From a bacterium (GTDB lineage: Bacteria; JAJVIF01; JAGGVT01), in NCBI GenBank assembly GCA_021157815.1, contig JAGGVT010000117.1, forward strand, positions 1-7,710: DNA of 7,710 bases, read 5' to 3'. A program made the translations under genes and the position numbers. The number at the start of each line of letters is the position of its first letter. Within the stretch, counting starts at the first letter, position 1. Positions 2,734-7,103 of this stretch are shown piece by piece. The notes under the pieces were generated by a model that was not told the DNA's origin, made no database searches, and saw only the letters and a list, made by a program, of their open reading frames with translations.

Positions 2734-2890
2734 ACTTTCCCCGTAACCCGGTCATGCCGTCCCGAACTAAAGAAACAATTATCTATAAGGTGAATCAGGC
2801 ATGCCGGGGAAGTGGTTATCTATGCTGAACCCCGGAATGCCTGCGAACGTTGCAGAATTGATTCATGTTTTTTTATAAAGGCATTCCGGG
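2734..2890. repeat. BIME-like cluster of four alternating CCCGG-ATGCC arms
   Basis: Four copies of one short motif occur in alternating orientation. They are CCCGGTCATGCC (from about 2747, plus), AGGCATGCCGGG (2797-2808, minus copy), CCCGGAATGCCT (2831-2842, plus) and AGGCATTCCGGG (2879-2890, minus copy). The last two form a perfect 12-bp inverted repeat around a 36-nt loop. The first two form an imperfect one that extends into ACTTTCCCC / GGGGAAGT. Three copies are preceded by AA(C) in the forward reading. The alternation resembles bacterial interspersed mosaic elements; folding into one or two cruciform-like stems is likely. No transposase is nearby. Confidence 0.55.
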
Positions 2891-3063
2891 TTACATTAAA
2901 ATCTATCCCTTTTTCAACAGCCCTAGGATGCCCGCACCACAAACCGCAGCATAACAACGTCCAGTTTTAATTCAAATGCAAGTAATTTCAAATCCAAGGA
3001 ATAAATCAGGTTCTAAGACGCCCTCGCTTACTGCTGGAGAACAAAAATCGGTGAAAATCACTG

Positions 3064-3876
3064 CTATTCATCCATGCTTTGCCTGAGCGATATCATCATT
3101 TCATCTTGTTGGGAATCATTGCCGGTTTCTGACTCGCGTGACTCTGATGTTAATTTAAGATGATTCTTCTGAGCTGATTCCTTATTATGAATTTCCTTTT
3201 TTATCGATGCAAATGGGTCATTAACCTGAGTTCCCATAATTGTCTCAAGAGTGTTCATGGAGTGTAATCCTTCAACAGCTTCGATAATATCCGGATGAAA
3301 TTGCTTGTTTTTTTCTTCTTGAATAACCTCGACTGCTTTCGATATCGTGACAGGAACATTATGTGGCCTTTCTGAGGTCAGTGCATATAGCGTACATGCG
3401 GCGTTGATAATCTGCGCTCCGATTGGAATTTCACAGCCGTTTAAATGATTTGGATATCCGGTGCCATCGTGTTTTTCATGATGGTACAGGATATTATTCT
3501 CTATTCCCTTGCTTAATGAAATTCCTTCCAGCGCTTTTATGCTCAATTCTGGATGACGTTGCACAATCTTGAACTCAGCCAGTGTAAGCCGTTCCTTTTT
3601 ATGCTTAATCTTATGCGGTACCGCCCACATTCCAATATCACAAAAAAGAGATGCTATTTCCAGTTCCTTTAATTCCAAATTGTCCAGCTCAATCTTGTTG
3701 CCAATCATTATTGACCATGACTTAACTTGATTAGTTCTGCCAATTGTGTATGGCGAGAGAGAGTCATAGGTGTTAAGAATAATCTCAACCATGCTTTGTC
3801 CAAAAATGGACTCTGATGAGACACCATCAGATATCGTATCCAAATGCAGATTTTCATTCTTCATATATGTATCCAT
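3064..3876 (-). CDS. Degenerate HD-GYP domain protein (c-di-GMP phosphodiesterase fold, probably inactive)
   Basis: This 270-aa cytoplasmic protein has no membrane segment or receiver domain. Residues about 40-205 follow the HD-GYP fold: FCDIGMWAVP (78-87, in place of HDIGK..IP), a conserved HP (108-109), HHEKHDGTGYP (132-142, GYP intact), then NAACTLYALTSERPH (158-172). Compared with active family members, the His of the HD pair is Cys79, the following Lys is Met83, and the late Asp ligand (VADxxDALTS position) is Cys161. The early helix ligand His also appears to be absent. Asp80, His108, His132 and His133 remain. Such loss suggests no hydrolysis but perhaps retained nucleotide or partner binding. 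Residues 220-270 are a polar, probably disordered tail. GGGAGG abuts the first ATG with no spacing, so Met5 (3864; 12-nt spacing) may be the true start. It lies upstream of and co-directional with the export operon. Confidence 0.85.
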   Translation of the reverse strand: MDTYMKNENLHLDTISDGVSSESIFGQSMVEIILNTYDSLSPYTIGRTNQVKSWSIMIGNKIELDNLELKELEIASLFCDIGMWAVPHKIKHKKERLTLAEFKIVQRHPELSIKALEGISLSKGIENNILYHHEKHDGTGYPNHLNGCEIPIGAQIINAACTLYALTSERPHNVPVTISKAVEVIQEEKNKQFHPDIIEAVEGLHSMNTLETIMGTQVNDPFASIKKEIHNKESAQKNHLKLTSESRESETGNDSQQDEMMISLRQSMDE

Positions 3877-3936
3877 CCTCCCGATTCTCTAATAATAAAA
3901 TCCAGATAATTGGCGTGAGTTTTTACTGTTTTACCC

Positions 3937-3942
3937 ATTATA
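3937..3942 (-). promoter_or_regulatory. Candidate -10 element for the HD-GYP gene
   Basis: A perfect TATAAT reads on the minus strand about 60 nt upstream of the HD-GYP start. The hexamer at 17-nt spacing (AAATTT) is a poor -35, so the call rests on the -10 alone. It overlaps the region of the divergent plus-strand promoter. Confidence 0.35.
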
Positions 3943-3945
3943 GGC

Positions 3946-3975
3946 TTGGATTAATTATCAAATTTTGCTTATAAT
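3946..3975 (+). promoter_or_regulatory. Promoter of the DUF1844 gene
   Basis: A perfect TATAAT (3970-3975) is preceded after 18 nt by TTGGAT (3946-3951), a 3/6 match to TTGACA. Initiation would fall near 3982, leaving a leader of about 30 nt that ends in a GGAG ribosome site. The -10 is strong and the -35 weak. Confidence 0.5.
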
Positions 3976-4010
3976 AATTTCTTTGCGGCAATCCATTTTC
4001 GGAGAAAAAG

Positions 4011-4391
4011 ATGTCAACTGAAGAAATCAACGAAAATACCAATGATGGAGAGAAAAAAGCCAGTGAGGAGGCGTATCGCCTCTCAAAGGAAAATTTCCCG
4101 GATATTAAATCCAATCTGGCTTATTTTATCCAGGTGCTGAGCAGCAACACTTATATTTATCTTGGAATGATTCCCATTCCAGGTACCGAGGAAGTCCTTT
4201 TCGACCTCGACCAGGCAAAACAGGCGATTGACCTTATCGAAATTCTTGTCAACCATGCCAAATCAATGGTCCCAGATGAGCAAAAACGAGAATTCGATAA
4301 CCTCTTGTCACAGCTACAGATGAATTATGTCGCCAAGTTAAAATCCGGGCAGGAAACCGAAACGGAAACTGACGATAAACCGGTTGAGTAG
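4011..4391 (+). CDS. DUF1844 family protein
   Basis: A small acidic cytoplasmic protein of 126 aa. Residues about 33-110 match DUF1844 (PF08899): LAYFIQVLSSNTYIYLG, then LGMIPIP (51-57), a short loop, DLDQAKQAIDLIEILV (66-81, the most conserved stretch) and a closing helix DNLLSQLQMNYVAKL (96-110). The N-terminal 30 residues and the ET-rich C-terminus (ETETETDDKPVE) are low-complexity and charged. The domain's biochemical function is not established. The start is secure: GGAG at 4001-4004 sits 6 nt before the ATG. It is divergent from the HD-GYP gene with a 134-bp shared intergenic region. An 8-bp tandem repeat begins 8 bp after its stop. Confidence 0.85.
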   Translation: MSTEEINENTNDGEKKASEEAYRLSKENFPDIKSNLAYFIQVLSSNTYIYLGMIPIPGTEEVLFDLDQAKQAIDLIEILVNHAKSMVPDEQKREFDNLLSQLQMNYVAKLKSGQETETETDDKPVE

Positions 4392-4398
4392 GCAGGCA

Positions 4399-4434
4399 AG
4401 TTATTAAGTTAGCAGGTTAGCAGGTTAGCAGGTT
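4399..4434. repeat. 8-bp tandem repeat array (AGTTAGCA/GGTTAGCA), copy 1
   Basis: About four and a half octamer units: AAGTTATT, AGTTAGCA-type, then GGTTAGCA twice, ending in GGTT-GA. It starts 8 bp after the DUF1844 stop. The same unit, including the terminal AGCAGGTTGA, forms the longer array after the SDR gene at 5583-5651. Because the period is not a multiple of three and each unit carries TAG, it stops every plus-strand frame. Confidence 0.8.
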
Positions 4435-4491
4435 GAGAGCGGTGCAAAACAACAGATTGAATGATATTTAATTTAATCTCAAATATTGAGC

Positions 4492-4602
4492 AAAAAAGGG
4501 GACTGTCCCAACAAAGTTCATAGATACGATAAACACTGGGATTTAGAACAATGTTTATCGAAATCATCGTACTGAAAGCCATTGTGGACTGTCCCCTTTT
4601 TT
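4492..4602. mobile_element. MITE/REP-like inverted-repeat element with terminator-like ends
   Basis: The outer arms are AAAAAAGGGGACTGTCC (4492-4508) and GGACTGTCCCCTTTTTT (4586-4602). They are inverted with only the central base mismatched, and flanking C4491/G4603 also pair. Nested inside is a perfect 9-bp inverted repeat, CGATAAACA (4527-4535) and TGTTTATCG (4552-4560), with a 16-nt loop. The whole 111 bp can therefore fold into one long hairpin. There is no open frame inside. GGGGACTGTCCCC-type palindromes are familiar as REP sequences linked to Y1/RAYT transposases, though none is encoded in this window. With A6 and T6 at its ends it could also act as a bidirectional transcription terminator. 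No clear target-site duplication is visible. Confidence 0.65.
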
Positions 4603-4627
4603 GTGGATTCTGGAGTATAATCAAATC

Positions 4628-5578
4628 ATGCGAGCATTAATAACAGGCATAAGTGGATTTGTAGGATCACATCTTGCGGAATTTCTCCTCAAACAGGATA
4701 TGGAGATTTTCGGGATAATCAGATGGCGTTCGAATCGCGAAAATATCCGCCACATCGAAAACAACCTGACACTGTTCGAGGGCGACATGCGCGATTTAAG
4801 CAGCGTCAAGCAGATAATTGAAGACACTAAACCCGAACGCATCTACCATCTGGCGGCACAGTCATTTGTCCCGACAAGCTGGACAGCGCCGCAGGAAACA
4901 ATTACATCGAACATAGTCGGTCAGTTGAACATCCTTGAGGCTGTCCGCGATCTCGATTTACCAACTCGAATTCTTGTGGTCGGTTCATCTGAAGAGTATG
5001 GATTGGTTTTTGAGAACGAGGTGCCAATCACCGAGGATAATCCCCTAAGACCGCTTTCCCCATACGGCGTCAGCAAAGTAGGGCAGGACCTTCTCGGATT
5101 CCAGTATTTCCATTCATACGGCATGCACATAATACGCACACGAGCTTTCAATCATACTGGTCCACGTCGCGGCGAGGTTTTTGTGACATCGAATTTCTGC
5201 AGGCAGGCGGTTTTAATCGAGAAAAAACTGCAGGAACCGAAAATCAGCGTTGGTAACCTTGAGGCTAAACGCGATTTCACCGATGTCCGCGATGTGGTAA
5301 AAGCATACCACCTCGCCCTTGAAAAATGCGAACCCGGCAAGGTCTATAATATCTGTTCCGGCAGAAGCTGGATAATAAAAGAACTTCTTGACAAGATAGT
5401 CGAGATTGCGGGAATCGAGATTGAAATAACAACCGACAAATCAAGAATGAGACCATCCGATGTCAAAATCCTTCAGGGCAGCCACGAAAAGTTCACAAAG
5501 CAAACCGGCTGGCAACCCGAAATCCCGATGGAGCAAACGATAAAAGACTTGCTTGATTACTGGCGGGAGAGGGTTTGA
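4628..5578 (+). CDS. GDP-sugar SDR: GDP-mannose 4,6-dehydratase / GDP-6-deoxy-D-mannose reductase family
   Basis: A 316-aa extended short-chain dehydrogenase. The N-terminal Rossmann motif GISGFVG (7-13) is followed by HLAAQ (74-78), the Ser/Glu catalytic region VGSSEEYG (118-125) and the YxxxK pair Y146/K150 in SPYGVSK. The C-terminal part carries RAFNHTGP (172-179), VGNLEAKRDFTDVRD (208-222), YNICSG (240-245) and GSHEKFTKQTGW (284-295). These C-terminal signatures are closest to GDP-4-keto-6-deoxymannose reductases (Rmd) as I remember them, whereas GIIRWRSNRENI (29-40) resembles the cofactor loop of GDP-mannose dehydratases (Gmd). Either activity would supply a GDP-deoxyhexose for surface polysaccharide. 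The ATG at 4628 places beta-strand 1 at the N-terminus; an in-frame TTG at 4601 lies inside the upstream inverted repeat and is unlikely. GGAG (4612-4615) is 12 nt upstream. A TATAAT at 4616-4621 is too close to be the promoter unless the message is leaderless. Confidence 0.9.
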   Translation: MRALITGISGFVGSHLAEFLLKQDMEIFGIIRWRSNRENIRHIENNLTLFEGDMRDLSSVKQIIEDTKPERIYHLAAQSFVPTSWTAPQETITSNIVGQLNILEAVRDLDLPTRILVVGSSEEYGLVFENEVPITEDNPLRPLSPYGVSKVGQDLLGFQYFHSYGMHIIRTRAFNHTGPRRGEVFVTSNFCRQAVLIEKKLQEPKISVGNLEAKRDFTDVRDVVKAYHLALEKCEPGKVYNICSGRSWIIKELLDKIVEIAGIEIEITTDKSRMRPSDVKILQGSHEKFTKQTGWQPEIPMEQTIKDLLDYWRERV

Positions 5579-5582
5579 GAAG

Positions 5583-5651
5583 AAGTTAGTAAGTTAGTAG
5601 GTTAGTAAGTTAGTAGGTTAGTAAGTTAGCAGGTTAGTAAGTTAGCAGGTT
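5583..5651. repeat. 8-bp tandem repeat array (AAGTTAGT/AGGTTAGT), copy 2
   Basis: Eight octamer units plus a partial ninth, starting 5 bp after the SDR stop. Units largely alternate AAGTTAGT and AGGTTAGT, and two units near the end carry a final C, giving a higher-order 16-bp period. The end AGTTAGCAGGTTGA is shared with the array at 4399-4434, so the SDR gene and its upstream inverted-repeat element are bracketed by the same repeat in direct orientation. Unit-number variation by slippage is expected. Confidence 0.85.
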
Positions 5652-5729: not shown

Positions 5730-6521
5730 ATGAACACTACCGAACTAACATACAAAAACGTCGCGCGACAAATGAATGAACGTCTTACAATTAAGGATAA
5801 AACAGGCAATCTTGATTTAACAGGCATTTCTAATTTCGACACTTTCTCGAATGTTTACATTACTTGCTTATACCAGGATGTTTTAATGCGAGTTTCTTCG
5901 TTGAACATTCAAACAACAGGTGATAAATCTGCGCAGGATTTCATTGGTATTCATTTGGAGCACGGGGCCGATTCCATAAAACTGAATTCTACATCGCGTA
6001 TTCACACCAGGAAAACAGATGTATCTGAAATACAGGAAAGGATTCAAAATGTAATTCTTGAACATCGAGTTGCAGTTGATTTGGAAGCTGTTAATGAACA
6101 TGTCCCTGAGGTTTTGCATAACGCCAAAGTGCATCCATTTGAACAGTTCTATTTTTTACGATGTGGGTTTTCAAAAACCGAGGGATTTTTTGATATAGCA
6201 ATAGGTGATTTCGGTTATGGAATTCGTGGAACACTTAAGCAAAAGAGCGAATATTCATATTTAGCTTCAAAGCCACATATGTATTCAATTGAGAAATCCT
6301 TTATACCTAAGGTTACATCAAAAAACGAAGCACGAGGAATGGGATTATCCGAATTGCATGATTATTTTTTAGAGCAGTCAAAGGGAGTGTTATTTCTATC
6401 TTCCGGTGATGGATATTATCTTATAGAAAATGATCTTGAGAAACATTCTGTAACTTCAGGAAATTTGGAGTATAATCTTAATGGTGTTCAAATTTTATTA
6501 CGGTTTTTTTGCTCAGAATGA
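5730..6521 (+). CDS. GHKL/HATPase_c-type ATP-binding protein (anti-sigma-kinase-like)
   Basis: A 263-aa soluble protein. The C-terminal half carries the Bergerat-fold signatures in order: an N box of the form ExxxNxxxH (E127, N131, H135 in PEVLHNAKVH), a G1 box DFGYGI (160-165), and a lid plus G2 box ARGMGL (201-206, after VTSKNE). Closing strands LFLSSGDGYY and NGVQILLRF (251-259) complete it. There is no histidine phospho-acceptor domain, membrane segment or receiver. Residues 1-110 match nothing I recognise and may be a sensory or dimerisation region. It overlaps the next gene, a STAS-like protein, by ATGA, as in SpoIIAB/RsbW-type kinase and antagonist pairs. It is visibly AT-richer than the SDR gene: 21/60 and 22/60 G+C in 5761-5820 and 6181-6240, against 30/60 in 4801-4860. 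This hints at separate acquisition. The ribosome site is weak (GAGT 13 nt upstream). The fold is confident; the substrate and role are inferred. Confidence 0.82.
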   Translation: MNTTELTYKNVARQMNERLTIKDKTGNLDLTGISNFDTFSNVYITCLYQDVLMRVSSLNIQTTGDKSAQDFIGIHLEHGADSIKLNSTSRIHTRKTDVSEIQERIQNVILEHRVAVDLEAVNEHVPEVLHNAKVHPFEQFYFLRCGFSKTEGFFDIAIGDFGYGIRGTLKQKSEYSYLASKPHMYSIEKSFIPKVTSKNEARGMGLSELHDYFLEQSKGVLFLSSGDGYYLIENDLEKHSVTSGNLEYNLNGVQILLRFFCSE

Positions 6522-6946
6522 AAATGTTTAAATTATCAAATATCACAAAGAGAACAACAAGCAGGGATCATGGTTCTGATGCGGCTCTGGCGATTATTGA
6601 ACTTCTTCACAATCACATCATTGAAAAAGTGGAGGCGAGCTCTATCGATGGTGTAAATTCAGTTACCATTCATACAAACACTGATGAGCTTATGATTGAC
6701 ATTTCTGATGATTCCAGGCCATCAGCAAGTTTTCTCGATGAAATTATCTATAGGCTTGATGATAAAAATCTTCTACATCGATTTAGATTCAGAATTCATA
6801 ATGACCGTGTTTTTCAAAAACTTGAAAAGATCAGCAATGATAGAGTGATATCCATCAATATCAATTGGAATGATAAGCGAAAAACAATCAAACCATCTGA
6901 CAAGCCTTCAAAAGCCAAACACAAAATAATCCATCGCGACCTTTGA
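6518..6946 (+). CDS. STAS-like DUF4325-type protein, partner of the ATPase
   Basis: A 142-aa protein whose pattern matches the STAS-like DUF4325 family. SRDHGSDAALAIIELL (15-30) resembles the usual N-terminal SR..G..A..I motif. ELMIDISDDSRPSASFLDEIIYRL (57-80) carries the beta-strand and the hallmark SFLDE (71-75). RFRIHNDRVFQKLEKISNDR (90-109) is the following strand and helix. STAS proteins such as SpoIIAA bind an ATPase/kinase and are phosphorylated on a Ser before the corresponding helix; Ser66, Ser69 and Ser71 here are candidates by position only. The region between residues 31 and 56 is longer than I expect, and the C-terminus is a basic tail (120-142). The ATG at 6518 overlaps the ATPase stop as ATGA; an in-frame TTG at 6509 and an ATG at 6524 are alternatives. 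Family membership is a motif-level judgement. Confidence 0.7.
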   Translation: MKMFKLSNITKRTTSRDHGSDAALAIIELLHNHIIEKVEASSIDGVNSVTIHTNTDELMIDISDDSRPSASFLDEIIYRLDDKNLLHRFRFRIHNDRVFQKLEKISNDRVISININWNDKRKTIKPSDKPSKAKHKIIHRDL

Positions 6947-6996: not shown

Positions 6997-7022
6997 GTTT
7001 CGCTAATTGCGAACCCTTTTTT
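6997..7022 (+). terminator. Weak intrinsic terminator after the ATPase/STAS pair
   Basis: A 5-bp stem TTCGC (6999-7003) and GCGAA (7009-7013) surrounds the loop TAATT. G6997/C7014 can pair across a bulge, and CC plus T6 (7017-7022) follows. It lies about 50 nt past the STAS-like stop, a suitable place for ending that operon. The stem is short, so efficiency is doubtful. Confidence 0.45.
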
Positions 7023-7103
7023 CGCATCTAATTATTAACGGGCGGACTCAACCACCGTCCTATGTTCTGTTATCTCAAAATCATCTGGAGAGCTCTAAAT
7101 CAA

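Follow-up and report, generated by a model that had tools for sequence, protein, structure and literature searches.

Kinase-STAS switches described so far

In the CapKS and VapKSC systems, whose switches act in stress and against phages, a kinase of the STAS-GHKL type phosphorylates a STAS partner (PMC13373217). CapK is activated by single-stranded DNA (ssDNA), and CapS, once phosphorylated on Ser54, leaves DNA (EMBO J 2026, PMC13373217). VapS is the antitoxin to a PIN toxin, and the VapKSC operon protects against a phage; the activation of VapK by ssDNA is modelled only (PMC13373217). Conserved aromatic residues linked to ssDNA are Trp68 of CapK and Phe54 of VapK (PMC13373217).

The two genes considered here lie in a stretch of 7,710 nucleotides from a bacterial genome (GCA_021157815.1, contig JAGGVT010000117.1), hereafter the window, and are a divergent toxin-less relative of the CapKS/VapKSC-type kinase-STAS switches; STAS-GHKL/DUF4325 pairs are widespread. 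Like VapK and VapS, the pair consists of a STAS-GHKL kinase that lacks an HTH, followed by a short STAS/DUF4325 protein that lacks a wHTH. In contrast to VapKSC, it is without a PIN toxin gene, has Ala70 at the column of VapS Ser48 and falls outside the PIN-linked clade. With CapK and CapS it shares the STAS-GHKL kinase and the STAS partner, whose Ser71 aligns with the SSF-motif Ser of CapS-like chains (9z71, 9z72), but gene 1 starts at the STAS-like domain with no N-terminal HTH, gene 2 has no wHTH, and no immune operon is visible 3′ of the pair up to the contig end at 7710. With defining features of each of CapKS and VapKSC missing, the pair is outside both named systems. The best structural matches to models of its GHKL and STAS-like parts are with SpoIIAB-SpoIIAA, RsbW-RsbV and UsfX-RsfB, though the kinases SpoIIAB, RsbW and UsfX have no STAS-like N-domain and bind sigma factors, none of which is linked here. 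A preliminary description had the pair as a possible uncharacterised partner-switching module with unknown input and target, a characterization that no longer applies to the kind of system, given CapK-CapS and VapK-VapS-VapC (PMC13373217), and that still does to the target of the toxin-less clade.

The gene pair and its surroundings

Both genes are on the forward strand. Gene 1 (P0001, positions 5730-6521) encodes a VapK/CapK-like STAS-GHKL protein kinase of 263 amino acids. Gene 2 (P0002, 6518-6946), whose start is taken as the ATG within the overlap of the two genes, encodes a STAS-like (DUF4325-like) protein of 142 amino acids that ends in a short basic tail and is the putative substrate of the kinase. 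The stop codon of one and the start codon of the other overlap as ATGA at 6518-6521, and the sequence has these frames and their overlap just where the preliminary description placed them. A terminator-like hairpin 3′ of the pair, at 7008-7026 of the same strand, is weak and a consensus match only; terminator-like sites numbered 2, against 0.8 expected.

The GC content of both genes is 35%, against 47% for the SDR gene, relative to which the pair had correctly been called AT-rich, and against 44% across 91 kb sampled from the genome. The further proposal that the pair is portable fits with this low GC, with the occurrence of wider-family members on phages and plasmids and with a patchy distribution. 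No PIN ORF is present in the 764 bases 3′ of gene 2 or in the rest of the contig, and the ORF that follows gene 2 is lipoprotein-like with no Pfam match. Nor, as had been noted from the start, does a Pfam scan reveal a sigma factor or a phosphatase encoded within the window. Elsewhere the genome has eight SpoIIE-type phosphatases, nine STAS proteins and five HATPase_c_2 matches above the cut-off, and because of these, partners in trans are possible, with none of them tied to the pair. Direct Pfam and NCBIfam scans of the gene 1 and gene 2 proteins gave no match, and the original assignment was therefore tested by way of their relatives.

The window also carries repeats. The 8-mer GTTAGYAR is tandemly repeated at 5583-5651 and at 4408-4434, and the 21-mer GTTAGTAAGTTAGTAGGTTAG, with up to two mismatches, has 478 + 529 copies in the 3.2-Mb genome, its reversed control having 0; the GTTAGYAR/GTTAGTAAGTTAGTAGGTTAG repeat is a large dispersed family.

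The kinase

Gene 1 is matched by phrog_3364 at 1.1e-17 (residues 22-259), and at 9.4e-24, an E-value that assumes a search space of 20,000 sequences, by a family HMM that was built from relatives with the window protein left out and whose alignment spans residues 4 to 258. Its residues 85-263 (5982-6518) are assigned by model and by VIA-align to a GHKL (Bergerat-fold) kinase domain, in which the N, G1 and G2 boxes first picked out by eye are all intact. The N box, E127VLHNAKVH135 (6108-6134), contains the putative catalytic Glu and Mg-binding Asn, and its E-x3-N-x3-H pattern is common to 28/28 relatives examined; the G1 box, D160FGYGI165 (6207-6224), and the G2 box, G203MGL206 (6336-6347), are recognized from the sequence and a motif alignment. 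The AlphaFold2 model of gene 1 has a pTM of 0.81, and for residues 85-263 the best VIA-align match is SpoIIAB (1l0o, 1til; Z 11.3, rmsd 3.0-3.1 over 129 residues), with UsfX (Z 10.1) and histidine kinases (about 8) below it. PADLOC gave a weak and uninformative JetC as its sole match; gene 1 was not taken as JetC-like or MutL-like, because the fold matches SpoIIAB.

The nearness of the model to SpoIIAB and UsfX, in a genome with eight SpoIIE phosphatases and nine STAS proteins, is what might be expected of a classical anti-sigma/anti-anti-sigma switch, RsbW/RsbV-like, with its sigma factor encoded elsewhere. Such a switch is improbable here, as the window is without a sigma factor or phosphatase and the kinase is a member of the phrog_3364 family with, like CapK and VapK, an N-terminal STAS-like domain.

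This N-terminal region had been described as 110 residues long and unrecognised. About 85 of them are instead recognizable as a diverged STAS-like domain (residues 1-84, 5730-5981): the first 85 residues score 18.7 bits against the N-domains of the family, a value reached by 0/2000 shuffles, none of which exceeded 5.6; the relative L034 has a Pfam STAS_2 match in its N-domain (1.7e-5, residues 10-62); and the gene 1 model has a beta-alpha-beta-alpha pattern there. The domain is some 20 residues shorter than that of the relatives, and at its most conserved aromatic column (W/F/Y in 18/21) gene 1 has Asn35, with Phe36 adjoining. If this column corresponds to CapK Trp68, an equivalence that is assumed, ssDNA sensing may be altered in gene 1.

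The STAS-like partner

Comparison by way of relatives indicates that the kinship of gene 2 to DUF4325 is real but remote, and the STAS-like/DUF4325 core proposed for it is in that sense borne out. Pfam PF14213 (DUF4325) gave no match to gene 2 at E <= 10, its curated cut-off not being reached, and an HMM of the same-position genes of five relatives gave 22.3 bits (best domain 19.6), a score found in 0/2000 shuffles. The motifs [TS]RDxG and SFLDE are common to gene 2 and the genes downstream of the related kinases, the TSRDxG of gene 2 being near its start. The model of gene 2 is middling (pLDDT 71, pTM 0.69), and a Foldseek search with it gave no significant match. The highest VIA-align matches are RsfB (Z 5.2), an SLC26 STAS domain, SpoIIAA (4.9) and RsbV (4.6), with unrelated chains intermixed near the same Z, and since Z is about 5 these matches are taken as supporting a STAS-like fold, not as proof of it. 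The protein continues for about 25 residues past this fold.

The motif S71FLDE (6728-6742) begins with the predicted phospho-acceptor, Ser71 (6728-6730), on the strength of alignments with SpoIIAA, CapS-like proteins and VapS. Ser71 falls on the later of the two Ser in the SpoIIAA motif DSSG (1auz) and on the SSF-motif Ser of the CapS-like chain 9z71; its equation with SpoIIAA Ser58 and CapS Ser54 comes from these alignments taken together with residue numbers from the literature. At the Ser48 column of VapS (9z7o) gene 2 has Ala70, Ser71 being next to it, and a shift of the alignment by one residue is possible. The predicted acceptor is at the SpoIIAA/CapS position and not at the VapS position. 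Three candidates, Ser66, Ser69 and Ser71, had been put forward earlier, and the family alignment supports Ser71 and neither of the other two.

The same genome encodes, on another contig, a vapKSC-like operon (L009, G000:C133, 260-2071) of STAS-GHKL, DUF4325 (54.7 bits) and PIN genes, the GC of which, 35%, equals that of the window pair. Two modules of like composition in one genome might suggest that the window pair supplies a further kinase and antitoxin, directed in trans at this operon's PIN toxin, but against the PIN-linked group alone gene 2 scores 0.9 bits, which is at chance level (228/2000 shuffles), its residue at the VapS Ser48 position is Ala and its C-terminus is different, all of which makes such cross-talk very unlikely.

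Relatives and their gene order

The phrog_3364 family is present, at E <= 1e-8, in 44/385 genomes searched. In 18/28 family loci examined a DUF4325-like gene is directly downstream of the kinase gene, so homologues of the two genes do occur side by side elsewhere, as a survey of neighbourhoods had been proposed to find out. PF14213 matches 17/20 downstream neighbours at E <= 0.01, a figure that is a label check and not an unbiased co-occurrence rate because the 20 (the 18 locus neighbours and two from viral contigs) were chosen by eye as DUF4325-like. An alignment of the DUF4325 neighbours matches Escherichia VapS (PDB 9z7o) at 1e-18, and L041 (1153-2172, reverse strand), one of the 28 loci, encodes HTH-like, GHKL and DUF4325 (49 bits) parts in one polypeptide, a fusion of both partners. 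The interpretation of the pair as a partner switch, offered in the preliminary description, thus gains from the family profiles, from the folds of SpoIIAB and STAS-antagonist type, from adjacency in many bacterial families and from this GHKL-DUF4325 fusion.

What comes third differs between loci. A PIN domain or PIN-like motif is encoded by the third gene in L009, L010, L017, L018, L024 and L035, on a Deinococcus plasmid and on two viral contigs, and in L020 (2727-3125) and L023 (2730-3344) its place is taken by a small protein whose hydrophobic N-terminus probably spans the membrane. In the Streptococcus phage Javan172 (L053) a PIN-like ORF at 4263-4793 follows the kinase-DUF4325 pair; its PIN_12 match, 1.8e-5, is below the cut-off, and the ORF is absent from the annotation of GenBank record MK448860.1.

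In a maximum-likelihood tree of the kinases, which has long branches (2.2 for the window kinase) and in which deep placement is unsure, the window kinase forms a clade with those of L033 and L034 (96/91), outside the clade (95/91) of the PIN-linked kinases. The L033 pair (genome G153) and the L034/L045 pair (Planctomycetales MAG CSMAG_2248) have the same two-gene order as the window pair, though at only 25-27% identity to it. The L033 partner is above the Pfam DUF4325 cut-off (24.4 versus 23 bits) and its kinase above that of HATPase_c (37.1 versus 26.4). Downstream of the L034/L045 pair there is no PIN gene, the next gene being a convergent ligA-like one, and the roughly 5 kb that follow the L033 pair contain no ORF that looks like PIN on inspection by eye. 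Divergent to the L033 pair, in L082 at 2855-4639 (reverse strand), are a DUF5677-like protein (25.7 bits, just under the cut-off) and a 300-amino acid protein that resembles a TIR domain by eye, without Pfam support.

The pair could have been left behind by a vapKSC toxin-antitoxin operon that lost its PIN toxin and is now decaying: a complete operon of this kind is present in the same genome, the window pair is fast-evolving, its N-domain is shortened and the PIN gene is missing. Against this, neither reading frame is disrupted, the two remain coupled, no catalytic motif has been lost, the nearest relatives, L033 and L034, are also without a PIN gene, and the PIN-linked kinases stand in their separate clade. 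Decay is on balance rather unlikely, though less so than either an anti-sigma role or action on the toxin of the second operon.

Close relatives of gene 1 are rare, since direct searches, by tblastn against phages and plasmids and by a scan of viral contigs, gave no match. A scan of genome contigs for the gene 1 family yielded L045 only, and searches of the phyla to which L033 and L034 belong brought in no additional members. The Escherichia VapS sequence similarly had no relatives among phages, plasmids and viral contigs.

Possible mode of action

The pair is probably a kinase-substrate partner switch of the SpoIIAB/CapK/VapK kind, most likely acting on an unlinked target. Gene 1 would be a cytoplasmic STAS-GHKL serine kinase that phosphorylates the STAS-like gene 2 product, most likely on Ser71; the phosphorylated product would then let go of its partner, the activity of which would change. 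In relatives, CapS has a promoter as its partner and VapS a PIN toxin, and as no such partner is encoded beside the pair an unlinked target is here the most likely one. Computation has shown the family and fold, the integrity of the catalytic motifs and the conservation of the pairing; ATP-dependent phosphorylation of Ser71 and partner release are what we infer from CapKS, VapKSC and SpoIIAB. Activation of gene 1 by ssDNA, the input in relatives, is doubtful.

Several points weigh against such a switch. Both proteins are below the curated Pfam and NCBIfam cut-offs, the link of gene 2 comes from transitive homology and a middling model, the window kinase is on a long branch, and there are the Asn35 at the aromatic column, the shortened N-domain and the lack of a visible target. 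A more specific version, tentative at this stage, is that of a separate STAS-GHKL/STAS-like clade that has kept the CapKS/VapKS switch with neither a toxin nor a DNA-binding output, and whose altered N-domain senses a signal other than ssDNA. If so, the effect of the pair would be exerted in trans, with the host SpoIIE/STAS network one conceivable target and the basic tail of gene 2 one conceivable route.

CapKS and VapKSC have one kinase-STAS core and two outputs, and the existence of pairs with no output gene of their own suggests that the wiring of this core is wider than described. In such pairs a third output can be sought with a system of two defined proteins.
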